33,758 nt of DNA from a virus, in the IMG/VR virus record IMGVR_UViG_3300020129_000325, positions 1 to 33,758 of that record; one strand, 5' to 3'. A program made the position numbers and the translations under genes. Shown here in pieces: positions 93 to 30,338 of this stretch (position 1 is its first letter; every line of letters starts with the position of its first letter). Under the pieces are notes generated by a model. It saw nothing but the letters and a program-made list of their open reading frames with translations, made no database searches and was not told the DNA's origin.

Positions 93-632
93 ATGGATTT
101 TAAAATGCAGGATTTAATATTTGTTGTTAAGAAATGTCATCGGTGTGGGGTGAATAAGGAAATAAAAAAAAGAGCCAGATTTTGCGATAGTTGTAAAATA
201 GAATCATCCAATGAATCCAGAATTAGGAGATACGAATACACTAGAAATTATCGCAATACTGCTGAATATCGCATAAAAAGAAACGCTCAGGTCAGAGAGA
301 AGCTAAAGAAAAGACCAAAATTACTTTTGGCAAAACGAATTAGGAATAGGATTTATCTTTTCTTGAAATTGAGAGGAATGGTTAGGTTAAAGTCAACACG
401 CGAAATCATTGGTTGTGATTATGACTTTCTTCAACAACACTTGGAAAAACAATTTGTTCTTGGTATGACTTGGCAAAATATGGGTGAGTGGCACATTGAG
501 CACAAAAGACCATTAGCTTCTGCAAAAACCAGATCAGAAATACTGGAATTAAATCATTATACAAATCTTCGTCCAATGTGGGCTATTGATAATTTAAAGA
601 AAGGAACTCGCTACAATGGGATTACTTACTAA
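93..632 (+). CDS. HNH endonuclease, packaging-associated
   Basis: This 179-residue protein has two CxxC pairs (C15/C18 and C31/C34) that could form an N-terminal zinc knuckle, a very basic middle (about 43-100), and an HNH core with WHIEH at 133-137 followed by HYTNL at 155-159 and IDNLKKG at 165-171. HNH proteins encoded beside terminase genes in cos phages such as HK97 stimulate terminase cutting. This gene overlaps the small terminase by 17 bases, which fits that role. A mobile homing HNH is the alternative, but the overlap and position favour packaging. The predicted promoter would put the transcript start near 88, so translation may begin at the ATG at 105 (four residues shorter). Confidence 0.8.
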   Translation: MDFKMQDLIFVVKKCHRCGVNKEIKKRARFCDSCKIESSNESRIRRYEYTRNYRNTAEYRIKRNAQVREKLKKRPKLLLAKRIRNRIYLFLKLRGMVRLKSTREIIGCDYDFLQQHLEKQFVLGMTWQNMGEWHIEHKRPLASAKTRSEILELNHYTNLRPMWAIDNLKKGTRYNGITY

Positions 633-1473: not shown

Positions 1474-3537
1474 ATGAGTTACGAAGAATTTTTAATCGAC
1501 ACCTACACAGACATTTTCGTAAATGTCATAGATTCTTCCAAATACCTTCTTTCGGACGTTAAACCATCCACTTGGGCTGAAACTCATCGGGTAATGGATT
1601 CTGAGGACACAAGCAGGCCTGGCCCTTTCAGTTACGATTACACCCCATACCTTAGAGATGTTGTAGATTTCTTCAGCGACAATCACCCTGGAAGATTTGG
1701 TGCTGTCAAAAAGGGAGCTCAGATCGGATATAGTACAGGTGTTCTTGAAAATGCCATCGGCTGGATTATTGATCAGAATCCGGGAAATATACTCTTCCTT
1801 TCCGGCCACCAAGAGTTATCTGAGGAGGCCATGAATGGCAAGATTGACAAGATGATTGACTCATGTGGGCTCAGACACCTTATAAAGCCCAATGTGATGC
1901 GCAAGAGAAATCAGCGCACTGGAGATACCAGTAAGGCAAAAGAGTTCCCTGGTGGCAAGATAGTGGCCGGGAGTGCCTCTAATCACAGTCTCCTGAAACA
2001 GCGGTCCGTTCGCTATGGTTTGATCGATGATTTTGATGGCGCCAAGAAAAGTTCTAAGAAATCCGGTAATACCAGGACGTTAATTCAGCAAAGATTTGCC
2101 GCTCATTATGATAAAATGAAACTAATGTTCATTTCTACTCCCGAATTGGAGGAGGATTCTAACATTGATGTGGTCTATAAACTCGGTGATCAGCGAAAAT
2201 ATCACGTAGAATGCCCATGTTGTGGTGAAGATATCGTTTTGATGTGGGAAGTCGAAATTGAGGGAAAAGAAGGCGAAATCGGTGGAATTACGTGGGAATT
2301 GGACGAAAACAGCAAATTGGTGCCCGGAAGTGTCAAATATCGGTGCCAAAAGTGCGGAAACACCTTCGATGACAGCATAAAACAGCATTTATTGCAGAAT
2401 GGAAGGTGGATTCCAACAGCTGAAGCAAGCGAAATAGGCTATTATTCATGGCATATTTCATGTTTATACGCTCCTCCAGGCATGTTTAATTGGGAGTATT
2501 ATGCTCGGCAGTACCTCGAAGCAAATCCGGTTGGAGGCAAAAGGAAGGAAGATGAGCATAAAACATTCGTGAATTTGTGCCTTGGGGAGACTTATTCTCA
2601 GGAAGGCCAAGCTCCAGAAGCCAAAATACTGCAGCAAAATATCAGAAATTACGAGATTGGGACCATCCCGGAGAAACTTTCGCTGGCCGATGGCAATGGA
2701 AAGATAGTGGCGCTGACTTGCGCATGCGATTTGAATGGAACTGAACAGGATGCCCGTTTGGATTACGAGATTTTGGCGTGGGCAGAAAATGACGGTGCCT
2801 GCTATAGTGTGGAGCATGGCAGCATCGGAACTTTTGTTCCACGTGAATCACAAATTAGGAATAAAGTTGATCGGGAGCACTGGACCTACGAGCCACACAG
2901 GCCAAGGAACGTGTGGAGTGAGCTAAATAAGATAATCAGCAAAACATACCTTACTGATTCATTGAGCCCAACAGCGGCAAACCCTGGAAGAATTGGAAGG
3001 CCTATGAAAATAGCCATTACAGGAGTTGATACCGGACATTATACTGACTTCGCATACAACTTTATCGATACCAGTAACTATCCTGTTGTTGGAGTTCGCG
3101 GGGATAAAGAAAGTAAATATCGGAGGTACGATGCCAATACAGCATCATTTAAGCCAGGTTTAGAAAGAGGAAAGCTTTATTTAGTCGATGTAAATCACGT
3201 CAAGGATAAATTAGCCGAGGCAATGAAATTGAATTGGAATAAAAACGATGCTGAACAACCACCAGGGTTTATGAATTTCCCTATTCCATCGGGAGGCCTA
3301 TACCTTTTAAATAATTATTTTTCTCATTTCGAATCAGAACATAAAATAATTCAAGAGAAGGATGATGGTAATTCTTTCCGTTGGGTTAAGAAAAGTTCCA
3401 ACTCACAGAATCACATGTGGGACGTTCGTGTGTATAACATGGCACTAAAAGATATAATTGTGGATATCGTCACAAAAGAATTTAAAATTAAAAAAGGCGT
3501 TTGGGCTGATTTCTGTAGATTAATGCTTCCTAAATAA
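1474..3537 (+). CDS. Terminase large subunit, lambda GpA family
   Basis: This packaging ATPase/nuclease is 687 residues long (lambda gpA is 641). The ATPase half has a degenerate Walker A at about 78-89 (VKKGAQIGYSTG), a Walker B at about 181-187 (YGLIDDF) and a coupling motif FISTP at 219-223. A four-Cys zinc knuckle follows (C247/C250 and C291/C294), as is usual in GpA-type terminases. The C-terminal half carries nuclease-like acidic motifs, including ITGVDTGHYTD. It would cut concatemers and drive DNA into the prohead through the portal, which here is encoded about 21 kb downstream rather than next door. The ATG at 1474 follows an A/T-rich leader with no Shine-Dalgarno motif. Confidence 0.93.
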   Translation: MSYEEFLIDTYTDIFVNVIDSSKYLLSDVKPSTWAETHRVMDSEDTSRPGPFSYDYTPYLRDVVDFFSDNHPGRFGAVKKGAQIGYSTGVLENAIGWIIDQNPGNILFLSGHQELSEEAMNGKIDKMIDSCGLRHLIKPNVMRKRNQRTGDTSKAKEFPGGKIVAGSASNHSLLKQRSVRYGLIDDFDGAKKSSKKSGNTRTLIQQRFAAHYDKMKLMFISTPELEEDSNIDVVYKLGDQRKYHVECPCCGEDIVLMWEVEIEGKEGEIGGITWELDENSKLVPGSVKYRCQKCGNTFDDSIKQHLLQNGRWIPTAEASEIGYYSWHISCLYAPPGMFNWEYYARQYLEANPVGGKRKEDEHKTFVNLCLGETYSQEGQAPEAKILQQNIRNYEIGTIPEKLSLADGNGKIVALTCACDLNGTEQDARLDYEILAWAENDGACYSVEHGSIGTFVPRESQIRNKVDREHWTYEPHRPRNVWSELNKIISKTYLTDSLSPTAANPGRIGRPMKIAITGVDTGHYTDFAYNFIDTSNYPVVGVRGDKESKYRRYDANTASFKPGLERGKLYLVDVNHVKDKLAEAMKLNWNKNDAEQPPGFMNFPIPSGGLYLLNNYFSHFESEHKIIQEKDDGNSFRWVKKSSNSQNHMWDVRVYNMALKDIIVDIVTKEFKIKKGVWADFCRLMLPK

Positions 3538-3591: not shown

Positions 3592-3870
3592 ATGGATAGA
3601 GAGGAAAACAAAATAACGGTCATTAAGCCAAAGAAAGGATTTGAGCATATGAAGCCAGCCTTCAACTGTCATATGACTCTTTCAAAGAAATCTGCGATTT
3701 TATTCTTTCCTAAGATGGCAATGATTGCTCCATTGGAGATGTCAAAAAGTATTATTGAGGAAGGCCCAACTCATATAGAATTTAAAATAAATTTGAATGA
3801 TGAATTATTCGATATAATGATCAAGACGATTCATAATCATAATTTCAAAATTTGCCTAAACAATAATTAA
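3592..3870 (+). CDS. Hypothetical protein, first gene of the glycosylation island
   Basis: A 92-residue protein counted from the ATG at 3592; a TTG two codons upstream (3586) is the alternative. It has alternating hydrophobic and charged segments that look like a small alpha/beta fold, with no cysteine pairs, signal peptide or membrane helix. I do not recognise it. It overlaps the next glycosyltransferase by one base, so translation is probably coupled. It follows the 3552-3583 hairpin and may be the first product of the island transcript. Confidence 0.6.
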   Translation: MDREENKITVIKPKKGFEHMKPAFNCHMTLSKKSAILFFPKMAMIAPLEMSKSIIEEGPTHIEFKINLNDELFDIMIKTIHNHNFKICLNNN

Positions 3871-4532
3871 TGAAAGTAGCAGTCATAGTTCCTGATCGCG
3901 GAGATCGTCCATTATTCCTTGGCAATTGCAAGAGAATGATTGATCGTCAAACACTTTCTCCTGAGACAGTAATTGTAATGGACCAAGTTGCTGAAGATGA
4001 TTCATACGACATCACAAAGAGGGTAAGAATCGGTTATGAACTGCTTTCTAAAATGGCAATACTTAATGTTCCAGTGGATGTGATCGCTATCATGGAGAAC
4101 GATGACTGGTATGCTCCTAATTACCTGGAGACAATGGTAGAAGCTTGGAAGCGATTTGGAATGCCTGATTTATTCGGTACTTGTTACACAATTTATTATC
4201 ACATGGAGCTTAAGGCTTACTATACCATGGAGCATCATCAACGGGCCAGCTTAATGAATACCTTTATTAAGCCATCTTTGGATTTCCAATGGTGTATTGA
4301 TGAGGAACCATACTTAGACTTGCATCTTTGGAAAACAGTGCCATCTCGCATTGTATTCCGTCCAGATAGACACATTTCAATTGGTTTTAAACATGGTATT
4401 GGTAAGTGCGGAGGAGGTTCACACGCGATTGACGAACGAATTAAAAAAAGATACCATACTCCAGACGGAGGTTTTCTAAAGGAAACTTTGGATGAGGAAA
4501 GTTTTGAATTTTATAACAACTATTTCAAATGA
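3870..4532 (+). CDS. Glycosyltransferase, GT-A fold (GT2-like)
   Basis: The 220-residue protein opens with the GT2-type strand MKVAVIVPDRGDR. It has an acidic metal and nucleotide-sugar site ENDDWY at 76-81, preceded by DVIAIM. A glycine-rich segment with GIGKCGGGSH lies near 176-185. There is no membrane segment, so it should act in the cytoplasm. Donor and acceptor cannot be read from sequence. It is joined to its neighbours by very short overlaps (1 base upstream, 4 downstream). A lyso-type virion-modifying enzyme or a surface-glycan enzyme are both possible. Confidence 0.78.
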   Translation: MKVAVIVPDRGDRPLFLGNCKRMIDRQTLSPETVIVMDQVAEDDSYDITKRVRIGYELLSKMAILNVPVDVIAIMENDDWYAPNYLETMVEAWKRFGMPDLFGTCYTIYYHMELKAYYTMEHHQRASLMNTFIKPSLDFQWCIDEEPYLDLHLWKTVPSRIVFRPDRHISIGFKHGIGKCGGGSHAIDERIKKRYHTPDGGFLKETLDEESFEFYNNYFK

Positions 4533-4804
4533 AAAAAATATTATTAATTTTAATCTGTATTGTCTTTTCAAATTGTGACATTAAACCAAGAGGAGTTAAT
4601 GCTCAAGAAACAGATCAATTAAAAAATTCTTGGAGCCACACTCCAATATATTCTTATAAGGAGGAGTGGCACAGCGGAATGCTCTATGGAGTTTGGTATG
4701 TTAATTATAATAATAGTTACACTGGATACTCTGTATTTGCTACCAATATCAGCAAAGATCAACTTGAAATGACTGTATTGAGACAAAAAAGAGACTGCAA
4801 ATGA
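4529..4804 (+). CDS. Small predicted lipoprotein
   Basis: A 91-residue protein with a lysine-positive start (MKKILLILI), a hydrophobic core and Cys16 in an FSNC context that could serve as a loose Bacteroidota lipobox. A second possible cleavage is after NA near residue 25. The mature part is polar and rich in Tyr, Asn and Trp. It begins with an ATGA overlap on the upstream glycosyltransferase and overlaps the next membrane protein by 4 bases. An envelope protein embedded in a cytosolic enzyme cluster suggests part of the island acts at the host surface. Function unknown. Confidence 0.6.
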   Translation: MKKILLILICIVFSNCDIKPRGVNAQETDQLKNSWSHTPIYSYKEEWHSGMLYGVWYVNYNNSYTGYSVFATNISKDQLEMTVLRQKRDCK

Positions 4805-5076
4805 AAAATCAACTTTATTTCGGAATTGCAATAAGATTAGTAATTCTATTCTCATTAGGAATATTATTCAGTTTTGTTCCTGAGCATTTGCGTGTTTTTT
4901 TTGGTGATCTTAATATACCAGATAAAAGTGGTGGTCCGATAGATAGAGATTGGGTCTGGGGCGCAAGGCATTATTGGTTTGCTTGGATGATGTTCTTTTT
5001 ATTCATATTGTCACTAATCAATTTTGTGATGTCTGTTTACAATTTGATCATTAAATATTATCCTGAAGTAAAATGA
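4801..5076 (+). CDS. Small membrane protein, two helices
   Basis: A 91-residue protein with hydrophobic stretches at about 7-27 and 58-84, separated by a polar loop with DKSGGPIDRDW. No family recognised. It is not a canonical holin by sequence, although size and topology would allow that; there is no endolysin nearby. It overlaps the lipoprotein upstream and the methyltransferase-like gene downstream by 4 bases each (ATGA), so these three are likely co-translated. A membrane anchor or export helper for the glycan enzymes is only a guess. Confidence 0.6.
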   Translation: MKNQLYFGIAIRLVILFSLGILFSFVPEHLRVFFGDLNIPDKSGGPIDRDWVWGARHYWFAWMMFFLFILSLINFVMSVYNLIIKYYPEVK

Positions 5077-5591
5077 TACGCGAAGCCAATCTACACTGGA
5101 GATATGAGGACACCGAGACAGGCCTTATTCTCCCTTGGTACACTCTCCCTGCTCTCCATTGGTTAAAGCAACAGGACGTTAGCAAATGGGAAGTATTTGA
5201 ATATGGTGCCGGTTACAGTACAATTTGGTGGAGATTGAATTGCAGAAATGTTGACAGTATTGATCATAATATAAATTGGTCTAACGCAATGAGTGCAATT
5301 TGCGAAAAAACCAAAGATGACTATATAGAATTCATTCGTTTCTGCATTGAGTCAACTACAAATGAAATGGGATTCGATTGTGTAGTTATAGATGGAGAGC
5401 ATCGTAAGGAGTGTCTTGAATATTCAATTGATTATGTTGCTAATGGAGGATATGTAATTATTGACAATTGGGGTCAAGAGGATTTTCCAGATACAGAGTT
5501 TGCTGACAAACTGCTTGAAGGATGGGAGAAACAGATTTTTAAACAACCTAACCATACCGACTGGTGTACAGCGGTATTCAGAAAGCCTTGA
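5073..5591 (+). CDS. SAM-dependent methyltransferase-like protein
   Basis: A 172-residue class I methyltransferase-like fold. Motif I reads FEYGAGYST (42-50), the second acidic strand VDSIDHN (60-66), then FDCVVIDGEHRKECL (101-115) and GGYVIIDNW near 126-134. The GEHRKE signature recurs in the gene at 10438, so the two are probably related. In a glycosyltransferase cluster, sugar O-methylation is the simplest role, but no substrate motif is visible. Adenine or protein methylation cannot be ruled out. Confidence 0.68.
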   Translation: MIREANLHWRYEDTETGLILPWYTLPALHWLKQQDVSKWEVFEYGAGYSTIWWRLNCRNVDSIDHNINWSNAMSAICEKTKDDYIEFIRFCIESTTNEMGFDCVVIDGEHRKECLEYSIDYVANGGYVIIDNWGQEDFPDTEFADKLLEGWEKQIFKQPNHTDWCTAVFRKP

Positions 5592-5623
5592 AAAAATTTA
5601 TATAGTGCGTGACAGGAGTAGTC

Positions 5624-6412
5624 ATGTTAAATGAAGCCGTTCCCTTCAGCTATATAGATTTTTTTAAAGATGGTTTTAAAGATAAAAAAATGATACTGAT
5701 AAAATTTGCATCAAGAGGAAGGTCAGATTGGTTCCGAAGAGGAATAGCCAACATAGTGAACACCATCCACACGGAGGATTACAAAATTCTTGTTACGGCT
5801 GACTTGGATGATCCTGAAATGAACAATCCTCACATCATTGAGTTTTGTCGGCAGCATGAGAATGTTACTTTGATTCACGGAAAATCTGAAAGTAAAGTGT
5901 TCGCTATCAATCGTGATATGGAATTTGTTGAAGGCTACCCATGGACCATTCTTGTCAATTTCTCGGATGACATGTTCTTTACTGTAAATGGTTGGGATAA
6001 CATTTTAAAACACCACATCAAAAGAGTATGGGGAACTTCACTTGACTTCTTCGCCCATCTCAACGATGGTTATGCGAAAGAAGCACTTTCGACAATGAGT
6101 ATAATGGGAAGGGATTATTACAATCGTGATGGCTATATTTATCACCCATCATATAAATCATTTTCATGTGATGCAGAGGCAATGTTTGTTGCCCAAATGA
6201 GAGGAAGGCACCATTACTTTGAGGAAAGTATTTTTCTTCACCAACATCCATCTAACTCTCCAAGAAGAGGAGATGAAACTTATCGAATTAACTCGCTGGC
6301 CACACCTCACGATACTAAAAATTATTTTGAAAGGCTTAATCGGTATTTTGATGAGCCAGTGACACCACAGACATTTATTCCATTCAAAGAACATTTAGGT
6401 AGAACATCATGA
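5624..6412 (+). CDS. Glycosyltransferase-like protein, GT-A fold, paralogue of 10941
   Basis: Counted from the ATG at 5624 it has 262 residues. AGGAG at 5613-5617 lies five bases before that ATG, one of few Shine-Dalgarno-like sites here. A GTG at 5609 and an ATG at 5690, where homology to the paralogue begins (MILIKFASRGR), are alternatives. Motifs include ILVTADLDD, the acidic site NFSDD at 112-116 and GYIYHPSYK at 170-178 followed by a CDAEA acidic pair. The gene at 10941 has the same order of motifs, which supports a duplicated enzyme family with a probable change in donor or acceptor. No membrane segment. Confidence 0.7.
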   Translation: MLNEAVPFSYIDFFKDGFKDKKMILIKFASRGRSDWFRRGIANIVNTIHTEDYKILVTADLDDPEMNNPHIIEFCRQHENVTLIHGKSESKVFAINRDMEFVEGYPWTILVNFSDDMFFTVNGWDNILKHHIKRVWGTSLDFFAHLNDGYAKEALSTMSIMGRDYYNRDGYIYHPSYKSFSCDAEAMFVAQMRGRHHYFEESIFLHQHPSNSPRRGDETYRINSLATPHDTKNYFERLNRYFDEPVTPQTFIPFKEHLGRTS

Positions 6413-6570
6413 ACATTACATTAACAGAAGAACAACTTGAGGAAGAAATAAAAATGGCCTACATTCACGGGTTCTCAAATGGTATGCAGTTAGAACGTGG
6501 ACTTGAACGTGATGAAACTGATGAATACGTAAAAAGTAGAATGCACAAAATAAAGACCAAGCAAAAATGA
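6409..6570 (+). CDS. Small acidic/basic protein of 53 residues, unknown
   Basis: An intact frame reads MNITLTEEQLEEE at the start, then GFSNGMQLER and a basic end (MHKIKTKQK). It begins with an ATGA overlap on the upstream glycosyltransferase and ends with an ATGA overlap on the next one, so it fills a gap that would otherwise be about 155 bases. The double overlap is the best evidence that it is translated. Mostly helical in appearance, with no signal or membrane segment. No function can be assigned. Confidence 0.6.
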   Translation: MNITLTEEQLEEEIKMAYIHGFSNGMQLERGLERDETDEYVKSRMHKIKTKQK

Positions 6571-7145
6571 AATTAGCTATACTTATTCCAACTCTTGTAG
6601 AAAGAAGAACATCCAGAAACATTCTGTGCATGCAGTTGCTTGAACAGATCAAGAATGCTGGCGCTGATAATGATGTTGAGGTTCTTTGGATTGAGGATAA
6701 CCGAGAGAAAACAACAGGCTATAAGCGAAATGAGTTAATCAAATATGCTCTGGAAAGAAATTCAGAATATGCTGCTTTCTTCGATGATGACGATGAGCCT
6801 GGGTTAACATACATTCAGCGCGGGTTGGAAGTAGTTGCCAGCGGAAAGGATTGTGGATCTCTTGTTGGTCAAATATATTGGAGCGGAGTACCAGGCAAGC
6901 CATTCCTTCATTCCCTGGAGCACAAAGAATGGTATGAGGACGAAAAATATTATTACCGAATGCCTAACCATCTTAATTTTGTGAAATTGGATAAGGTGAA
7001 GAATATTAAATTTCCTGATCAAGTTTTCGGTGAAGATGGAGTTTGGAGTTATGCCGTTCGGGATGCAGGAGTTTTACAGACTGAGCACAAAATTGAAGAT
7101 GTGATATATAATTACTACTGTGGATTTCCAAAACATAAAGTATAA
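6567..7145 (+). CDS. Glycosyltransferase family 2-like
   Basis: A 192-residue short GT-A protein. It begins MKLAILIPTLVERR, a typical GT2 first strand, has a second strand VEVLWIEDNRE (38-48) and the metal-binding site FFDDDDE at 71-77. Later, GEDGVWSYAVRD near 150 resembles the catalytic acidic region. Very short for GT2, so it is a bare catalytic domain. It overlaps the gene upstream by 4 bases and the gene downstream by one base. Confidence 0.75.
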   Translation: MKLAILIPTLVERRTSRNILCMQLLEQIKNAGADNDVEVLWIEDNREKTTGYKRNELIKYALERNSEYAAFFDDDDEPGLTYIQRGLEVVASGKDCGSLVGQIYWSGVPGKPFLHSLEHKEWYEDEKYYYRMPNHLNFVKLDKVKNIKFPDQVFGEDGVWSYAVRDAGVLQTEHKIEDVIYNYYCGFPKHKV

Positions 7146-7921
7146 TGTCTAAATTAATTTCTTATAGTCTGTTTTATGCCCCATGTGAGCCCTTCGAGAA
7201 AATGGCCTATATCCGTGGTGCCTATTGGAATTTCAGGATGAATAATTTTCTGTATCCAGACTGGAGAAGTCATCTGGAAGTTCAGCGAATTGTTTACGAA
7301 GAGTTCAAAGGACTTTTTGATTGGCTTGTTGAGAACAATAATCTCAGTCTTTCAATCAATGAAGGTTATCCGGCTCTTTGTGAGGGTATGCTCTGGAGAA
7401 TGAAGCCCATCTGGACTCAGGATGTATCTCATGTGCTTTGCAGGGATGCAGATGCCATTACCACATACAAAGAAGCTGAACTTGTTCAGTACTGGCTTGA
7501 GTCAAATTATTATACGATTGGAGCCATCCTTGATAATCCATCCCATTCAGGATTAATGGGAGGAATGATTGCAATACAAACATCTTCATTTAAAGCATTG
7601 ACAGAACTTAATAGCTGGCAAGAACTGATATCAGGAAAGGATTTATCAGAAAGAGGATCTGATCAGCATTTGCTTAATAGCTTAACTGTGAAATTGAATA
7701 ATGCTATAATTTATCTTGGAAGACTCCCATTACACCAACCAAAAGGACTTCCGCAAGTTAATCCAAAACTATGGGAGTCAAATCTTACATGTAGGCATAT
7801 CGGTAGTGCTGGCGTAGTTGAAATGGAGACAATACGTTTCTTCAAGCGACATGACCCATATCAATGGAAATTCGATGTAATTGAAAAGCAATTTTCTAAA
7901 CTATTTTACTGGCAAGCATGA
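7145..7921 (+). CDS. Glycosyltransferase-like protein with DAD motif
   Basis: This 258-residue protein has the DxD-type site RDADA (100-104) after a hydrophobic strand, a GLMGGMIAI strand at about 136-144 and GSDQHLLN at 171-178, a pattern seen in GT-A enzymes where the Asp/Gln segment lies opposite the metal site. A late CRHIGSAG may bind phosphate. The family is not certain. No membrane helix. Overlaps its neighbours by 1 and 4 bases. Confidence 0.65.
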   Translation: MSKLISYSLFYAPCEPFEKMAYIRGAYWNFRMNNFLYPDWRSHLEVQRIVYEEFKGLFDWLVENNNLSLSINEGYPALCEGMLWRMKPIWTQDVSHVLCRDADAITTYKEAELVQYWLESNYYTIGAILDNPSHSGLMGGMIAIQTSSFKALTELNSWQELISGKDLSERGSDQHLLNSLTVKLNNAIIYLGRLPLHQPKGLPQVNPKLWESNLTCRHIGSAGVVEMETIRFFKRHDPYQWKFDVIEKQFSKLFYWQA

Positions 7922-8727
7922 GATACATTTCATTATCAGTTAACAGAGTACCAAAGTACAGCTATTATCTTCCTTTGGTTTGTTGGGCGTGGAAACGTTA
8001 TAATTGGAAGGTGATTATAATGCATGAGGGTGAAATAAATCCTATTATAAAAAACTGTAAAAGTATGAAAGGGGTGTCGTTTGTCGAGATTGATCCGATA
8101 GATGGTATTGCTTCTGAGACGGTAACACAAGTATCCAGACTGTTCGCTTCCAGTTTTGTTGATATTGCGGATTACGTTATGACATCTGACGCTGACATGA
8201 TTCCTTTGTCTGATCACTTTAATCCATATGAGCACAAAATCACTAGTTATGGAAGAGATTTAACAGATTACCATTACCCAATTTGTTACGTGGGAATGCC
8301 TGCTTACTTGTGGTATAAAGTTATGGGAAACGATTACATTTATCCTCAAGATATCCGTGAACACAGAATGTTCTATATCAAAAAAGGCTTGGAAGGAAGG
8401 GCCGATGCCAAATCAGATCAACCAGAATTAAGATGGGTAACTGATCAAAATATGTTAACTGAAAAATTACTTGCATATGGTTCTGACTTTATAATTAGAA
8501 AGGACCGTGGGACATATCAAAATGGATACCCATTAGGAAGGGTTGACCGTTCGGCATGGACGCTTAATCATGGTAAATTTATTGATTGTCACGCTCCGCA
8601 CAATGTTCTTGAAAATGAATCCAGCTATAATAGATTGATTGAACTTATAGAGCACGTATGGCCGAACGAAGATTGGGGATGGTTTAAAAAATATACTGAA
8701 GATTTTAAAAAATTAATCAATGAATGA
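7918..8727 (+). CDS. Glycosyltransferase-like protein with DAD motif
   Basis: A 269-residue GT-A-type protein. TSDADMIPL at 89-97 provides the DxD motif after a strand, and WVTDQNML at 173-180 is the second acidic segment. IDCHAPHN near 223-230 supplies late histidines. The same DAD...DQ order as the gene at 7145 suggests they belong to the same broad group, although overall similarity is low by eye. Starts with a 4-base overlap on the preceding gene. Confidence 0.68.
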   Translation: MRYISLSVNRVPKYSYYLPLVCWAWKRYNWKVIIMHEGEINPIIKNCKSMKGVSFVEIDPIDGIASETVTQVSRLFASSFVDIADYVMTSDADMIPLSDHFNPYEHKITSYGRDLTDYHYPICYVGMPAYLWYKVMGNDYIYPQDIREHRMFYIKKGLEGRADAKSDQPELRWVTDQNMLTEKLLAYGSDFIIRKDRGTYQNGYPLGRVDRSAWTLNHGKFIDCHAPHNVLENESSYNRLIELIEHVWPNEDWGWFKKYTEDFKKLINE

Positions 8728-9364
8728 TGTTTGTTTTGTATCCGTAGCATTCGGGGAACGCTATGTTGAGCAGCAGGAACGATTGAGAGAATCTATTTTT
8801 GATATTTATCCAGATGCCAATATTTTATTTTATACTGATGCAAGGCCTGAAGGTTCGAGAACATTTTATGAATCTCTTTATGGATTCAAGCCACATGCTG
8901 TTCTAGGTGCAATTAACATTAAAAAGTGTGATAAAATAATATGGTGCGATCCAGCCATGATTTTAGTGGACAAAATTGATGATATGTTAAAATATCCAAT
9001 AATTGCAGTCCAGGATGATAATAAGCTTTTTAAATTTATCTCTGATAGATATTTAGCTAAAAGTAAACTTACCAGATTAGAATTGGAACACTTATCTTGG
9101 CACTTAGTTGGAGGAAGTCTTTTATATTTTGATTTCACGAATGACATTGCTTGTGATATTTTTGCAGGATGGATGGCAGATGAGCGTGCGGGCCTTTTTG
9201 GATCTCAATATGAGGAGGCCAGCGAGAAACTTCAGGGACATAGGGCAGATGAAACTTGTTTGGCCATGCAGATTTATAAACATGGGGTTACCCCTATTTC
9301 TGGTCCTGATGTAAGATACAATATCGAAGAAAATCCAATGTGGTTGAAAAAACATTTTAAATAG
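8720..9364 (+). CDS. Glycosyltransferase-like protein, GT8-like layout
   Basis: A 214-residue protein opening with the strand DVCFVSVAFGERYV and LFYTDARPEG at 37-46. The usual DxD position reads IIWCDPAMIL at 73-82, where the second acidic residue is missing, so metal binding may be altered. VGGSLLYFDF and GHRADETCLA follow, both typical of the acceptor side in GT8-like proteins. It overlaps the previous gene by 8 bases. It may be inactive or use a different donor. Confidence 0.58.
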   Translation: MNDVCFVSVAFGERYVEQQERLRESIFDIYPDANILFYTDARPEGSRTFYESLYGFKPHAVLGAINIKKCDKIIWCDPAMILVDKIDDMLKYPIIAVQDDNKLFKFISDRYLAKSKLTRLELEHLSWHLVGGSLLYFDFTNDIACDIFAGWMADERAGLFGSQYEEASEKLQGHRADETCLAMQIYKHGVTPISGPDVRYNIEENPMWLKKHFK

Positions 9365-9371
9365 CACAGTT

Positions 9372-9959
9372 ATGACAATAGAAAAAATCCATGAGCACTC
9401 AGTTGATACATCATTGTTACCGGAAGGGGCGAAGATCCTTGATATTGGTGCCCGTGGTTTTCTTTTTGCTGAATATTTTGAGAGACTTGGGCATGATGTT
9501 ACATGTATTGATGCTGATGATCTACCTTATACACATAATAGGCATCACTATTTAGAGTGTGCCATTTCAGACTATAATGGTGATGCCGAAATAATAAGAA
9601 ATAAAGATCTACAAGCAACATCAATAAAACGCGCAGAAGAACCATATGACAAATTAAAAGACTATATCCATTGCTATACTCTTGTTGAGTTATCAAATAT
9701 TTGCGGAATTCCGTTCTGGAGTTTAATAAAAATTGACATTGAGGGTTCAGAGTATCAGGTGATCATGTCGCTTGAAAAAGCTCCAGCAACACAATTGAGC
9801 ATAGAGTTCCATCTCCATACAGGGATTTATGGAATGTACGAAATGACATTAATGGAGGATAAATTGAAGGCGCTTGGATATTATCCAGCTAAACATGAAA
9901 TGACAGAAGAGCATGGTGCAGGAACTAACTTTTGGGATTCTTTATGGATACTAAAATAA
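9372..9959 (+). CDS. FkbM-family methyltransferase
   Basis: A 195-residue class I methyltransferase with motif I ILDIGARGF (22-30), an acidic second strand CIDADD (45-50) and the FkbM hallmark IKIDIEGSEY (119-128). FkbM enzymes commonly O-methylate sugars in glycan and antibiotic pathways, which suits the surrounding glycosyltransferases. Start at the ATG 8 bases after the upstream stop. The C-terminus overlaps the epimerase-like gene. Confidence 0.82.
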   Translation: MTIEKIHEHSVDTSLLPEGAKILDIGARGFLFAEYFERLGHDVTCIDADDLPYTHNRHHYLECAISDYNGDAEIIRNKDLQATSIKRAEEPYDKLKDYIHCYTLVELSNICGIPFWSLIKIDIEGSEYQVIMSLEKAPATQLSIEFHLHTGIYGMYEMTLMEDKLKALGYYPAKHEMTEEHGAGTNFWDSLWILK

Positions 9960-10441
9960 TAGTTGGTAATGGTGACATCGCCTCAATACTTTCCCTAAGA
10001 GAAGGTGCTTTATTCTTTGGGTCAGGTGTTTCAAACAGTAATTGTAATGATGATTATGAATTTCAGCGTGAGCACGATTTACTTTATTCTTACAGAAATT
10101 TCAAATTGTGTTGTATATACTTTAGTTCAATAGCAATCTATGACCAATGCAGCAGCCCATACATCTTGCATAAGATAAGCATGGAGAATTCGGTTAAGGA
10201 TTATTTTGATAATTATTGCATTATAAGAATTGGGAATATTGATTGGGGTAAAAATCCAAACACATTTCTGAATTATCTTAGAAACAAAATTAAGAATAAT
10301 GAACCTCACATAATAAAAGACGAATTCAAATACATGATTTCAAAGGATCAATTGGTAATGGTTGCAAATAGCGTACCGTTGATTGGTCGAAATGAGATAT
10401 GTATATTCGGATATAAATCAAAAGTAATTGACCTGCTATGA
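9944..10441 (+). CDS. Miniature NAD-dependent epimerase/dehydratase-like protein (SDR)
   Basis: From the ATG at 9944 the protein has 165 residues; a TTG at 9932 would add four. It keeps a first strand KIIVGNGDIA, the strand and serine pair YFSS at 59-62 and a YxxxK pair (Y73, K77) in PYILHK, the SDR catalytic signature, then IIRIGNIDWG. Extended-SDR sugar epimerases are usually near 300 residues, so about half is missing, mainly in the cofactor region; the start lacks the full GxxGxxG loop. It may be a reduced enzyme or a binding protein. It is the only candidate here for making or altering a nucleotide sugar. Confidence 0.55.
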   Translation: MDTKIIVGNGDIASILSLREGALFFGSGVSNSNCNDDYEFQREHDLLYSYRNFKLCCIYFSSIAIYDQCSSPYILHKISMENSVKDYFDNYCIIRIGNIDWGKNPNTFLNYLRNKIKNNEPHIIKDEFKYMISKDQLVMVANSVPLIGRNEICIFGYKSKVIDLL

Positions 10442-10944
10442 GAAAAGAAGAATTTTTAAAAGACATTGATAACTGGTCAAACCATCGTTATCTTCTATGG
10501 CCAGCACTTGAGGCAACAAAGCATATTGGTCTTCCTGTTTTGGAATTAGGATGTGGAAATGGAAGTACTCCATATCTTCAGAAATATTGTAGTGACAATG
10601 AATTACGATTGGGATCTTTTGATTTTGATAAAGAATGGGCTGATAAATTTGATGCTAATTATATTTCGAATTGGGATGATATAATATTTGATTCACATTA
10701 TAGTGTTGTTTTAGTTGATCATTCTCCAGGAGAACACAGGAAAGAGGCTTTAAAAAAACTAACGCATTCAAAAATTATTATTATTCATGATAGCGAACCG
10801 GCTGGCTGGAATGCCTCAGACTATCAGGTAAGAGAACAATTCGGATTATTTAAATATGTTTTTGATTTAAAATCCGAAGAGCCAGAAGGAGCATGGGCCA
10901 CCGCATTAAGTAATACAATTGATGTAACAAAATTTGAACTATGA
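10438..10944 (+). CDS. SAM-dependent methyltransferase-like protein
   Basis: A 168-residue class I fold with motif I VLELGCGNGS (34-43), a second strand GSFDFD (59-64) and VVLVDHSPGEHRKEAL (90-105), then IIIIHDSEP. The GEHRKE segment matches the gene at 5073, suggesting paralogues with different motif I and acidic residues. Likely substrate is a sugar or glycan of the island, by context only. ATGA overlaps join it to both neighbours. Confidence 0.7.
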   Translation: MRKEEFLKDIDNWSNHRYLLWPALEATKHIGLPVLELGCGNGSTPYLQKYCSDNELRLGSFDFDKEWADKFDANYISNWDDIIFDSHYSVVLVDHSPGEHRKEALKKLTHSKIIIIHDSEPAGWNASDYQVREQFGLFKYVFDLKSEEPEGAWATALSNTIDVTKFEL

Positions 10945-11630
10945 TTTCAATAATTCATCCTACCCGATCACGCCCAATTAAATCATGGGCAACTTGTAAT
11001 GACTGGATCAAGAATGCTCATACTGATATTGAATTAATAATCAGCATTGACATTGATGATCCGCATAGAAAAGAATACTTGAAGACCCATAAATATCTAG
11101 GAAACATAATAACCAGCACAAATAGATCTGCTATTGATGCAGTGAACAATGCAGCCCAAACAGCAAAAGGAGACATTCTAATTGTTGTATCTGATGATAC
11201 CGAATGTTTTTATGGATGGGGAAAACATTTAGAAAATCACATGCAAGGGAGATCTGATTGGATTCTTAAAACACAGGATGGTATCCAGCCATGGATCATT
11301 ACAATGCCGCTAATGGATCGGATATACTACGAACGATTTGGATATATTTACCATCCAGATTATAAGCACATGTATGCAGATACAGACCTTACTTGTGTGG
11401 CAGAATTGACCGGCAAGAAGATTGTTACTAATTTCCAGTTCCCTCATAATCATGTCTCAGAAAACGGGCAAATTGCTGATGATGTGACACTGAGGGCCAA
11501 TGCCACATTTGAAAGTGGAAGAAAGGTTTTTAAACAACGATTATCAAGAATGTTCGATATACCACAAGATAAAATAATTGGTCAGCTTACTCAAAACCAC
11601 TACACAAATGAAGCTATGTGCCATTTATAA
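10941..11630 (+). CDS. Glycosyltransferase family 2-like, paralogue of 5624
   Basis: A 229-residue GT-A protein that opens MISIIHPTRSRP, with ELIISIDIDDP at 31-41, the acidic site VVSDD (82-86) and GYIYHPDYK at 134-142 followed by DTDL. The order and wording of these motifs match the gene at 5624. It lacks the N-terminal extension of that protein. No membrane segment. Its 3' end overlaps the start of the next gene by 23 bases. Confidence 0.74.
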   Translation: MISIIHPTRSRPIKSWATCNDWIKNAHTDIELIISIDIDDPHRKEYLKTHKYLGNIITSTNRSAIDAVNNAAQTAKGDILIVVSDDTECFYGWGKHLENHMQGRSDWILKTQDGIQPWIITMPLMDRIYYERFGYIYHPDYKHMYADTDLTCVAELTGKKIVTNFQFPHNHVSENGQIADDVTLRANATFESGRKVFKQRLSRMFDIPQDKIIGQLTQNHYTNEAMCHL

Positions 11631-12360
11631 TGTTTTTGACGGAATAGAGTTATTGCCTGGATCAATCAAAACAATTTACAAGCATGTAGAAGAAATAATT
11701 ATAGTCTGGCAGGATATTTCAAATTTTGGCGAAAAGTATGATCCGCATCCTGAAATGGCCAAAACGCTTTCTGATTACTTTCATAAAATAACCTTTATCA
11801 AATTTGATCCAATTATCGATATAGGGGGCGCAATGAACGAGAGAGCCAAAAGAAATCTAGGCATGGATTACGCCAGAAGGCTTGAATGCACACACTTTAT
11901 TTCAATGGATGTCGATGAATACTATGAAGATTTTGAACGCTGCAAATCGCTTTATATTGAGTCAGGCAATAAAGGCTCTGTTTGTCGGCTACAGACTTAT
12001 TTCAAAAAACCAATATTCCAATTCGATATTCCAGAAGATTATTTTGTGCCATTCATTCATCAACTTGGCCCGGAAACAAAAAATGGAAGTTCTTCTTATA
12101 AATTTTGGGTTGATCCTACACGTACAGTAAATGAGGATGATATAGTTGAGCTACCAATCTTCATGCATCACTTTAGCTGGTGCAGGAAGGATATTGAAAG
12201 AAAGGCTCGGAATTCCAGCGCCAACATTAAAATTAAAAACGGCAGAATACTGGATGATTACAATTCTGCAGATTTGGGTGAAGGGTATTTTCTGACAAAC
12301 TGGAATAGGAGGATAAAAATTGTTGACGATATTTTTGGATTATCTAGTATTTTTGAATAG
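11608..12360 (+). CDS. Glycosyltransferase family 2-like, last gene of the island
   Basis: The ATG at 11608 gives 250 residues beginning MKLCAIYNVFDG, a good match to GT-A starts; a TTG 30 bases upstream would add an unlikely extension. The metal site is SMDVDEYY at 99-106, and a late HHFSWCRKDIERKAR resembles the C-terminal substrate loop of GT2-like proteins. The stop is followed by about 58 bases and then the intrinsic terminator at 12419, so this gene closes the island. Confidence 0.74.
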   Translation: MKLCAIYNVFDGIELLPGSIKTIYKHVEEIIIVWQDISNFGEKYDPHPEMAKTLSDYFHKITFIKFDPIIDIGGAMNERAKRNLGMDYARRLECTHFISMDVDEYYEDFERCKSLYIESGNKGSVCRLQTYFKKPIFQFDIPEDYFVPFIHQLGPETKNGSSSYKFWVDPTRTVNEDDIVELPIFMHHFSWCRKDIERKARNSSANIKIKNGRILDDYNSADLGEGYFLTNWNRRIKIVDDIFGLSSIFE

Positions 12361-12418: not shown

Positions 12419-12449
12419 AAAAACCTCGGAGTAAATCTGGGGTTTTTTT
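12419..12449 (+). terminator. Intrinsic terminator after the glycosylation island
   Basis: A 12-bp stem pairs 12419-12430 with 12436-12447 (ten Watson-Crick and two G-T pairs), loop GTAAA, and the 3' side runs into a T7 tract. This is a textbook rho-independent terminator and separates the island from the sheath operon. Confidence 0.85.
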
Positions 12450-12531: not shown

Positions 12532-14043
12532 ATGTCCTCAAACGCTGTTACGTTAGATAGAATTTCCAGAGTTGTTGGTTACAAGATAACAAAGGGCAAT
12601 TTTAACGAAAACAGCCCGAATTTACCCCAAAGGATAGCCATATTAGCCGAGGCAAATGATGCCAATCAAGCATCGTTAGTATTGACTCCGCAACAGATTA
12701 CAACAGCACAACAAGCGGCACAACTTTTTGGTGATGGATCTCCTGTGCATTTGATTGCAAGAATCCTTTTCCCTTTCTCTGGAGATGGAGTTGGTGGAAT
12801 ACCTGTTTTTGTATATCCACAGGCTAAGGCTGCTGGAGCAGCTAAGAAGGTAATTACTATTCAGCCAACTGGAGTTGCTACGGCCAATGTCACACATTAT
12901 GTGAAGGTAGCTGGCCGTGATGGCATGGATGCGCAATTTTACGCTATCAATATTGTTACCGGTGACACTACGTCGACCATAATTCAAAAAATTGAAGATG
13001 CTGTAAATAATGTTTTCGGATGTCCTGTAACTGGAACCGGGGATTCTTATGAGGCAATCTTAACTACCAATTGGAGTGGACTTACCGCAAATGATGTTTC
13101 GGCATCAATTGACACAAATGGTAATTCTGCTGGTATTTCTTATTCGGTTCAAAATGTTGCTGCTGGAAGCGGCACACCAAGTATTGCTGGGGCACTTGCG
13201 CAATTTGGAAATGACTGGAATACAATTGTTATAAGTTCTTACTATGATGCAACAACGATGTCTGCATTGGAACAATTCAATGGTATTCCTGATCCTGCAA
13301 ACCCAACCGGACGTTATGCCGGAATAGTAATGAAGCCATTTATTGCTTTGTTAGGTTCTGTATTGGATAATCCAAGTAGCATTACTGACACAAGGCTTAA
13401 TGATGTAACAATAGCAATATGCCCAGCGCCAGGCAGCTTAGGCTTGCCAATGGAAGCTGCTGCGAATATGGCTGTGTTGTTTGCTGTACAGGCTCAAAAC
13501 TCCCCACAACTTGACGTAGCTGGACAGTCATATCCTGATATGCCGGTTCCTAATTCAATATCGTCAATGGCAGATTATAGTACCAGAGATTCTATTGTAA
13601 AGAAGGGATGCTCAACTGTTAATTTAACAGCGGGTAGGTATCAAGTGCAAGATTTCGTTACTACATATCATCCATTGGGTGAGAATCCACCTCAATTTAG
13701 ATATTGCAGGAATTTGAATATTGACTTCAATGTGAGATATGGTTATTACTTACTTGAATTACAATATGTAGTTGACCATGTGATTTCTGCTGATGAAGAT
13801 ACGGTTACTGCTGATAAGGTAGTGAAACCGAAAACATGGAAAAGCAATGTTGATGAATATGCCGACGATCTTGCGAAGAGAGCATTGATAGTTCAGGCTC
13901 CATTTATGCAAGCAAGCATTGTAGTAAATATTGGAACTTCTAACCCAGATCGTTTGGAGACATTCTTCCGATATAAGAGAAGTGGATTTGCGCGGATTGC
14001 AAGTACGACCGCTGAAGCTGGTTTTAATTTCGGTACACTTTAA
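12532..14043 (+). CDS. Tail sheath protein, Mu gpL-like
   Basis: This 503-residue protein has the size and ending of contractile sheath subunits (Mu gpL is 495). The C-terminal third contains NLNIDFNVRYGYYLLELQ and a final domain with IVNIGTSNPDRLETFFRYKRSG, the conserved sheath core. The gene is followed 13 bases later by the tube protein, the invariant order of contractile tails. It shows that the phage is a myovirus type. It is the first gene after the repeated late element, fitting a product needed in hundreds of copies. Confidence 0.9.
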   Translation: MSSNAVTLDRISRVVGYKITKGNFNENSPNLPQRIAILAEANDANQASLVLTPQQITTAQQAAQLFGDGSPVHLIARILFPFSGDGVGGIPVFVYPQAKAAGAAKKVITIQPTGVATANVTHYVKVAGRDGMDAQFYAINIVTGDTTSTIIQKIEDAVNNVFGCPVTGTGDSYEAILTTNWSGLTANDVSASIDTNGNSAGISYSVQNVAAGSGTPSIAGALAQFGNDWNTIVISSYYDATTMSALEQFNGIPDPANPTGRYAGIVMKPFIALLGSVLDNPSSITDTRLNDVTIAICPAPGSLGLPMEAAANMAVLFAVQAQNSPQLDVAGQSYPDMPVPNSISSMADYSTRDSIVKKGCSTVNLTAGRYQVQDFVTTYHPLGENPPQFRYCRNLNIDFNVRYGYYLLELQYVVDHVISADEDTVTADKVVKPKTWKSNVDEYADDLAKRALIVQAPFMQASIVVNIGTSNPDRLETFFRYKRSGFARIASTTAEAGFNFGTL

Positions 14044-20156: not shown

Positions 20157-20615
20157 TTATTTAAATAGTTCATCAATAAGTATTTTTCTTTTATTTGGAT
20201 CAGTCTGATAGTCATACATATATTGACCATCTGGTACCATTATAGAATATGTATTGTATGGCGCATGTGCTCTATGTAATAAAAAGTGCCCCATTTCGTG
20301 AAAGACTATGAATTCAACATTTAAACTATCAAAATGATCTTTCATTGATAGAGTTTCGAGGGTAAATCGTTTATCAATTTTTATCTCACTTAATTCATAT
20401 ACCGTAAGTCCATAAATACCGGTATAAAATGTATTTAAATCATCCGTTAGCACCATAGTCATATCCTTATTAACATCTTTATTTCTTTTTGCGCCCTCCG
20501 CAAAAAATCGATTCGCAAAAATTTTAAGGTGTGGGTCAATATAAAAATGCCTTGAGTCTGTAAAGTCGCTACAAGAGAACAGTGTTATTAATAGTAAAAA
20601 AAATGTATTTTTCAT
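20157..20615 (-). CDS. Metzincin-like metalloprotease lipoprotein
   Basis: The ATG at 20615 gives 152 residues with a lipoprotein signal (MKNTFFLLLITLFSC, Cys15). HEMGH at 106-110 is the zincin site, with further histidines at 114 and 117 and SIM at 124-126 that looks like a metzincin Met-turn. The spacing differs by one from the classical HExxHxxGxxH. Similar small zincins occur in Bacteroidota genomes. It lies on the opposite strand inside the late tail region and has its own promoter-like TACCTTTG, as expected for an accessory (moron) gene expressed outside the late programme. It may alter the host envelope. Confidence 0.75.
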   Translation of the reverse strand: MKNTFFLLLITLFSCSDFTDSRHFYIDPHLKIFANRFFAEGAKRNKDVNKDMTMVLTDDLNTFYTGIYGLTVYELSEIKIDKRFTLETLSMKDHFDSLNVEFIVFHEMGHFLLHRAHAPYNTYSIMVPDGQYMYDYQTDPNKRKILIDELFK

Positions 20616-20639
20616 TTTAATTTGTTGTTTGATGATGAC

Positions 20640-20647
20640 CAAAGGTA
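20640..20647 (-). promoter_or_regulatory. -7 promoter element for the metzincin gene
   Basis: On the minus strand TACCTTTG reads 20647 to 20640, an exact TAnnTTTG match, 24 bases before the ATG at 20615. No clear -33 TTG is present at the usual distance, so strength is uncertain. Confidence 0.5.
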
Positions 20648-26409: not shown

Positions 26410-26595
26410 TTAATCTTTTCGAGGAGGTAGTTTCATATTGTCAGGATAGCTGTTTGCTATTTCCCATAACTTAGGTTTGATCAGCGCTGAAATATCAGTG
26501 CCGAGATTTTCTGCGATGTTCTCCAAATCAGTTCGTATTTGTTTGCCTACTCCTCTGATTCTAATTTCCCGGTGATCTCTATTTGTTTCTGCCAT
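26410..26595 (-). CDS. Ribbon-helix-helix-like small protein, possible regulator
   Basis: From the ATG at 26595 the protein has 61 residues. It begins MAETNRDHREIRIRGVGKQ, a polar start then a short strand IRIRG, and two helices (about 18-30 and 35-48), the plan of Arc/MetJ-type RHH dimers. It is divergent from the head protease gene, and the 31-base element copy B lies between them, 15 bases from this start. RHH dimers usually bind short dyads. A regulatory role on the two late elements is inference. Confidence 0.55.
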   Translation of the reverse strand: MAETNRDHREIRIRGVGKQIRTDLENIAENLGTDISALIKPKLWEIANSYPDNMKLPPRKD

Positions 26596-26609
26596 GTCAG
26601 TAAAATTAT

Positions 26610-26667
26610 AAAATATTCCCGCCAAAAGGGACAAATATTTATAAATAAATTCTATTGGTGAATTTTT
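26610..26667 (+). promoter_or_regulatory. Late-gene element, copy B (upstream of head protease)
   Basis: Same tripartite layout as 12456-12513: 31 identical bases, 16 bases of low identity, 11 identical bases. It ends 9 bases before the protease ATG. On the minus strand it also offers AATATTTG, a 7-of-8 match to TAnnTTTG, ahead of the RHH-like gene. Confidence 0.7.
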
Positions 26668-29688: not shown

Positions 29689-30338
29689 GTGTAATTGATT
29701 CAGTAATACCACCACAGGCTTTTGAAGTTATCCGAGATCGGATTGGGAGAATTATAGCTGAAGAATTAGATAATCAATTTCAGATCAGTTATAACCCTGA
29801 TTTTAGAGTTAAAAATTGGATAGAGCGATTTCTTCAATTTGACAAGACGGAGTTGCCGTCTGTGAATGTAATATTTGGTGAGGGCACTTACGATGGCCAG
29901 ACTACAATACAATCGGATGGGACTTATAAATTTCATATTGATTGTTACGTTAACGCGAAGACCAATCAGGGTGGACCTGGTGATGTCCGGGCAATGGGCA
30001 AGCTTCATAGATTGCTGGGGCTTTGTAGGGCTATCATAGATGACTCAAGGAACAAGACGCTTCAGTTTAGTGTACGGCCAGGGTTTATAATGTATCGTCA
30101 TGTAGAGAGCATACAGATTGAGAATCCAAGGCAGAAAGAACATGATGCGGATAGTTCAGTGATGGGGAGGTTAACAGTTGTTGTTAAGGCCCCAGAGATC
30201 ACAAGCTATTCTCAGCCGAGGAATTTGGCAAGTTTTATAACAACAGTAAAGCTCGCTGACACTGATAGAGGTTATTTATGGATTGATGATAATAACACAA
30301 GATATTTTGATTCATCATTTGATGGGTCTTTTGAATGA
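29685..30338 (+). CDS. Tail completion/terminator-like protein
   Basis: A 217-residue protein with an N-terminal helix, a beta body (SVNVIFGEGTYDGQTT, YKFHIDCYVNAKT) and IENPRQKEHDADSSVMGRL, the style of tail terminator proteins (gpU-like). It follows the FII-like gene as tail completion genes do. The last residues TRYFDSSFDGSFE nearly copy the end of the gp46-like baseplate protein. ATGA overlap with the fibre gene. Confidence 0.55.
   Translation: MSVIDSVIPPQAFEVIRDRIGRIIAEELDNQFQISYNPDFRVKNWIERFLQFDKTELPSVNVIFGEGTYDGQTTIQSDGTYKFHIDCYVNAKTNQGGPGDVRAMGKLHRLLGLCRAIIDDSRNKTLQFSVRPGFIMYRHVESIQIENPRQKEHDADSSVMGRLTVVVKAPEITSYSQPRNLASFITTVKLADTDRGYLWIDDNNTRYFDSSFDGSFE

Follow-up and report, generated by a model that had tools for sequence, protein, structure and literature searches.

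In the current work, a gene island rich in glycosyltransferases (GTs) was analyzed within the IMG/VR virus record IMGVR_UViG_3300020129_000325, a fragment of 33,758 bases (the whole of which is referred to as "the window") that codes for a myovirus morphogenesis set comprising TerS, TerL, sheath, tape measure, baseplate, portal, head protease and capsid. The island (positions 3592-12360) contains 16 open reading frames (ORFs; W01 to W16), all located on the plus strand and most of them overlapping by their stop and start codons, and it is situated between TerL and the sheath gene, just as a preliminary description of this DNA had reported. Our preferred reading, to which a probability of about 0.52 is assigned, is that the island represents a self-contained glycan-assembly cassette acting on a virion protein, in the manner of virion glycosylation. 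The genes and features of the locus are the following (E, expect value; pLDDT, predicted local distance difference test; TM, template modelling score):

1474..3537, plus strand: TerL (GpA family), which bounds the slot upstream
3592..3870, plus strand: W01, small ORF without family match; a near-consensus TACAATTG box ends 3 nucleotides (nt) before its ATG
3870..4532, plus strand: W02, GT-A-like glycosyltransferase with which the cassette characteristically begins (sub-threshold PF00535 match, E 3e-4; hhalign to W08 96%)
4529..4804, plus strand: W03, small protein carrying a lipoprotein-like signal; the other slots examined contain no homolog
4801..5076, plus strand: W04, small protein in which two hydrophobic helices are present; likewise without homolog in the other slots examined
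5073..5591, plus strand: W05, S-adenosylmethionine methyltransferase-like (Methyltransf_24 PF13578 E 2e-4, sub-threshold; family present in 9 loci)
5624..6412, plus strand: W06, glycosyltransferase of the W06/W15 family (phrog_14945 E 1e-14; family alignment)
6409..6570, plus strand: W07, ORF of 53 amino acids without family match
6567..7145, plus strand: W08, GT-A glycosyltransferase (phrog_14775 E 2e-24; profile versus TarS E 2e-9)
7145..7921, plus strand: W09, putative glycosyltransferase (conserved DxD only; no family match)
7918..8727, plus strand: W10, predicted GT-A fold, KfiA- and glycogenin/GT8-like (model pLDDT 89.4, VIA Z 13.3; DxD in family alignment)
8720..9364, plus strand: W11, putative GT-A-like protein ("WLDPAM"-like motif only; no family match)
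9372..9959, plus strand: W12, FkbM-type methyltransferase (PF05050 25.5 bits, over cut-off)
9944..10441, plus strand: W13, short SDR-like protein (RmlD PF04321 E 0.039, sub-threshold; conserved YxxHK in family alignment)
10438..10944, plus strand: W14, methyltransferase-like, W05-related (hhalign profile to W05, 94%)
10941..11630, plus strand: W15, GT2-type glycosyltransferase (PF00535 over cut-off; phrog_14945)
11608..12360, plus strand: W16, predicted GT-A fold, the gene that usually closes the cassette (model pLDDT 96.3; VIA Z of 14.9 against ThuS; viral "fringe-like" TM 0.78)
12419..12447, plus strand: intrinsic terminator-like hairpin 3' of W16
12532..14043, plus strand: tail sheath, which bounds the slot downstream (phrog_165 E 4e-85)

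The preliminary description had counted eight GT-A-type enzymes, six of which are retained on account of profile matches (W02, W06, W08 and W15) or of a predicted fold (W10 and W16), whereas W09 and W11 are assigned by a motif only. Because no family match was available for W16 and W10, both were folded with AlphaFold2 using alignments of their relatives, and the models were compared by means of Foldseek/VIA. The W16 model is nearest to the S-glycosyltransferases ThuS and SunS, and that of W10 to KfiA (Z 13.3) and then to glycogenin-like folds (Z approximately 12), so that the fold check by structure prediction, as it had been proposed, assigns to these two proteins a predicted GT-A nucleotide-sugar fold. 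The presence of three methyltransferases and of a miniature SDR-like protein is plausible from sequence: W12 exceeds the cut-off, W05 remains below it and W14 is reached through its profile relationship to W05, while W13, formerly termed an epimerase, is SDR-like only via the sub-threshold RmlD match and the conserved YxxHK. The proposed lack of membrane helices applies to the enzymes (and, across islands, 543 of 566 proteins are devoid of a strongly hydrophobic 19-mer) but not to W04 with its two hydrophobic helices, or to W03 with its lipoprotein-like signal. We agree that the locus is of interest, its annotation having been slightly over-confident. The content of the island far exceeds what chance would yield, since gene order and sequence are kept in dozens of independent contigs.

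The closest annotated phages are Ficleduovirus (Flavobacterium columnare; 50% identity for the sheath and 37% for TerL) and Cellulophaga phiSM, and three contigs from metagenome-assembled genomes link relatives to Bacteroidetes bins; the host of the window phage, as judged from these relatives, is probably a member of the Bacteroidota. In the Ficleduovirus phage FCV-1, TerL is followed by six small or unrelated genes and then by the portal gene; no GT island is annotated in FCV-1, and none was found with the W02 profile. In the clade of the window, TerL adjoins the sheath because the head block is placed after the tail block.

A search with the sheath retrieved 30 related loci, in which the slot between TerL and sheath measures between 75 bases and almost 8 kb, this range extending to approximately 12 kb in a wider set. 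A survey of related phages, as proposed in the preliminary description, shows that both presence and content of the island vary: within the clade near Ficleduovirus the slot is empty, is occupied by W02 alone (L033 and L101) or holds multiple genes. In islands of which both edges are seen, W02 is usually the first and W16 usually the last gene in the order of transcription, while the middle is interchangeable, being composed of W06/W15, W08 and methyltransferases in class I, and of a GT-like protein together with a hexapeptide acyltransferase or an Asn-synthetase-like amidotransferase in class II (the corresponding "hexapep" cluster is a mixture of acyltransferases and Asn-synthetase-like proteins, and the W11/W12 cluster had merged neighbours); a class III is also present. 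This usual plan is broken in L022, L079, L134 and others. The cassette furthermore occurs at the junction of the tail and head blocks (L061, L091 and L110), and W02-family genes are located between tape-measure and head-protease or portal genes in unrelated phages with other terminases. Other genes encountered at such places include an RtcB RNA ligase gene within the glycosyltransferase slot of L017 (5747-7165) and, in an unrelated phage (L118, 13941-14468, minus strand), an antisense sialyltransferase-like gene (phrog_4603 E 4.5e-4) which adjoins W16 and whose product resembles proteins of L095 and L119.

Most of the relatives found carry the cassette on the strand opposite to TerL and sheath, where it runs against the former and diverges from the latter. 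A tree of 67 sheaths comprises 37 with a reversed island and 13 with a forward one, and it implies at least two changes of orientation on well-supported branches (five by parsimony) and eight changes of class by parsimony; these counts include loci retrieved by means of W02 or W16 and should not be taken as unbiased frequencies. Site-specific inversion of the cassette was considered and rejected, as no flanking inverted repeats were present in five loci; the changes of orientation appear to be evolutionary.

Profile searches showed that viral contigs encode at least 384 relatives of W02 and at least 157 of W16, whereas neither family was found in 50,697 GenBank phage records; the same kind of cassette is common in related environmental viruses, and a search of cultured phages did not reveal it. 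Among 296 Bacteroidota genomes there was a single weak match for the W02 family and none for that of W16, the latter search being without an internal positive control. The same limit applies to the failure to find W02 in island-less records, many of which are fragments. No report of this cassette was found in a literature search.

Late expression had previously been deduced from the position of the island, an argument that fails given that the cassette is antisense to both flanking genes in most relatives found and often possesses a sigma-A-type box of its own. The flavobacterial sigma-A box TAnnTTTG, which spans -12 to -5 (PMC9723704), is located at most 40 nt upstream of W02 in 19 of the 30 cassettes that are placed divergently (adjoining the sheath, or o24440 at the tail/head junction), as compared to one of the 41 W02 genes that are preceded by a gene on the same strand (Fisher p 1e-8); under a first-order Markov null the mean was 1.7, and 19 was never reached in 2000 simulations. 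The box is a sequence match as opposed to a mapped promoter. Of the 21 boxes located at most 70 nt upstream, 13 end 4-5 nt before the W02 ATG, so that transcription would start at the start codon and generate a leaderless mRNA, a type that accounted for just 5.5% of the mRNAs measured in a flavobacterial study (PMC9723704). In the window, the box preceding W01 is TACAATTG, with one mismatch to the consensus, and a scan of the window for E. coli-type promoters revealed no excess. Considering that the box also occurs upstream of a minority of sheath (16 of 68) and tube (10 of 44) genes, it does not by itself allow a verdict on early or late expression.

According to the preferred reading, cytosolic cassette enzymes would use host nucleotide sugars to build a decorated oligosaccharide on a virion protein, the decoration being methylation here and probably acylation or amidation in other versions of the cassette. 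W02 most likely adds the first sugar, since it is the sole enzyme found alone in minimal islands; the GTs and methyltransferases of the middle may then set the type of glycan, and W16, as the usual last gene, may act late in assembly. With fixed ends and an exchangeable middle, phages could exchange one glycan type for another in the way known from capsule loci, and such a swap might alter how antibodies, predators, surfaces or receptors recognize the particle. Among the sequence-based arguments, those which make a virion target the best reading are the homology of W08, the location at junctions between virion genes, the solubility of the enzymes and the phage restriction of the core families. 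The near confinement of the W02 and W16 families to phages, as judged from GenBank phages and Bacteroidota genomes, suggests a phage-specific acceptor as opposed to borrowed cell-surface GTs. W08 is homologous to LittleE gp15 (E 6e-18) and Che8 gp108 (E 2e-16), with family hidden Markov model (HMM) scores of 171 and 152 bits, respectively, and the LittleE GT cluster (gp15-21) adjoins the major capsid gene. We know of no glycosylation of LittleE virions. For Che8, virion proteins are reported to be glycosylated, the essential GTs being gp110 and Corndog gp38 (PMC12363180).

Several observations weigh against this proposal. The island family HMMs have no match to Che8 gp110, reported to be essential for capsid glycosylation, and no Ser/Thr-rich or extended C-terminus was seen on capsid, tube or sheath of island-bearing phages, such a tail being our own proxy for an acceptor which other acceptor motifs would escape. 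No acceptor was identified, either by C-terminal tails or by a search for genes confined to island-bearing genomes. The earlier proposal, in which cytosolic enzymes glycosylate the virion with donors taken from the host, nevertheless gains support from W08 homology, from W02-family genes among head and tail genes of unrelated phages and from the failure to find a DNA-modification pathway or Gtr genes. In the second of these searches, the only genes exclusive to island-bearing genomes were W02/W16, W06/15, W08 and a small ribbon-helix-helix-like gene. The latter, considered as an island-linked candidate, was dropped upon a weak match in the island-less L019. In the window this gene (26410-26634, minus strand) encodes a short protein which by eye is ribbon-helix-helix-like, a candidate regulator, and lies antisense between portal and head protease, with homologs at the equivalent antisense place in several relatives. 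The N-terminus of a tail-fibre-like protein of the window (30335-33181, plus strand) is Sec-signal-like, and its stalk is rich in Ser, Thr and Gly (S+T amount to 47% over 60 amino acids); with, by eye, an SGNH-like domain as well, this protein is a possible glycan acceptor.

The antisense layout with its own promoter may further be likened to that of morons, whose action is often directed at the host, and a moron-like unit could remodel lipopolysaccharide, capsule or surface glycoproteins of the host, thereby blocking superinfection or altering adsorption. This appears rather unlikely: it accommodates the sigma-A-type box and the orientation opposite to the late genes that many relatives show, the terminators detected in 4 of 21 cassettes (that of the window among them; null mean 0.15), the integrase present in the records of 4 of 29 relatives and the fact that methylated, acylated or amidated sugars are typical of surface polysaccharides; however, the GtrA flippase (PF04138) was found in none of 24 relatives, polytopic membrane enzymes are lacking, most records have no integrase and the core families are nearly absent from genomes of the host phylum. 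The host-type promoter box, in suggesting that expression need not be late, would also suit a cassette whose enzymes modify proteins or small molecules inside the host cell for takeover or counter-defence, and among solved folds the one closest to W16 is that of a peptide S-glycosyltransferase (ThuS/SunS). Multi-enzyme glycan assembly with tailoring would nevertheless be excessive for a toxin-like modification, which renders this alternative improbable, and we know of no counter-defence parallel. Glycosylation of modified bases in phage DNA (hypermodification) is more improbable still. Virus-encoded DNA-hypermodifying GTs exist, as stated by a paper citing Pyle et al. 2024, and one relative, the cassette-bearing record of L053, carries a TET/JBP gene (PF12851; G022:42029-42391), but this was the only one among 24 relatives, and the thymidylate-synthase-type hydroxymethylase PF00303 was found in none of 29, many of these being near full length and some perhaps incomplete.

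Compared with known systems, the island shares with mycobacteriophages (Che8 gp108-110, Corndog gp38, Myrna and LittleE gp15-21) the clustering of phage GTs without obvious donor synthesis, and the C-terminal part of Che8 gp108 looks methyltransferase-like and matches island family c19. It differs from them in host phylum, in its larger number of GTs and tailoring enzymes, in its core W02/W16 families (not found in GenBank phages), in that no Ser/Thr-rich C-terminal tail was seen, and in its occurrence in either orientation with its own promoter box; membership in the mycobacteriophage type of virion glycosylation is not established. Chlorovirus PBCV-1 likewise employs virus-encoded GTs and methyltransferases (A064R, A061L, A111/114R) to generate a methylated glycan on its particle (PMC9614988), a likeness drawn by description, although PBCV-1 is a eukaryotic algal virus with N-glycans and multidomain enzymes in place of the operon seen here. 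The gtrABC/moron modules of temperate phages are also accessory genes with their own promoter among late genes, whereas the island lacks GtrA or a polytopic GT, is mostly without integrase and has phage-specific core families. Bacterial capsule and O-antigen loci have a similar arrangement of conserved ends and a variable GT/methyl/acyl/amido middle, but no flippase or polymerase was seen here and the cassettes are placed at phage virion-gene junctions.

Tentatively, the cassettes may constitute a widespread "glycotype" system of uncultivated Bacteroidota phages, in which fixed W02/W16 ends, an exchangeable middle and a leaderless host-sigma promoter of its own would provide switchable virion sugar coats. 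Experimentally shown virion glycosylation of tailed phages is limited, in the papers found, to a few mycobacteriophages. If our reading is correct, glycan coats would be common among environmental Bacteroidota phages and swapped like capsule types, W02 and W16 would serve as two marker genes by which cassettes are easily tracked, the islands would be a source of small soluble GTs from new families, and the question why a phage would coat itself in sugar outside animals would become directly testable.

Two further genes of the window lie outside the island. An antisense gene within the tail operon (20157-20642, minus strand) encodes a protein with a lipoprotein-like signal and an HEMGH metalloprotease-like motif, while an Endonuclease VII-like HNH gene (93-632, plus strand) adjoins TerS and is the only part of the window with nucleotide similarity to cultured phages (approximately 71% identical at the DNA level to Flavobacterium phage elemo over a stretch of 177 bases).

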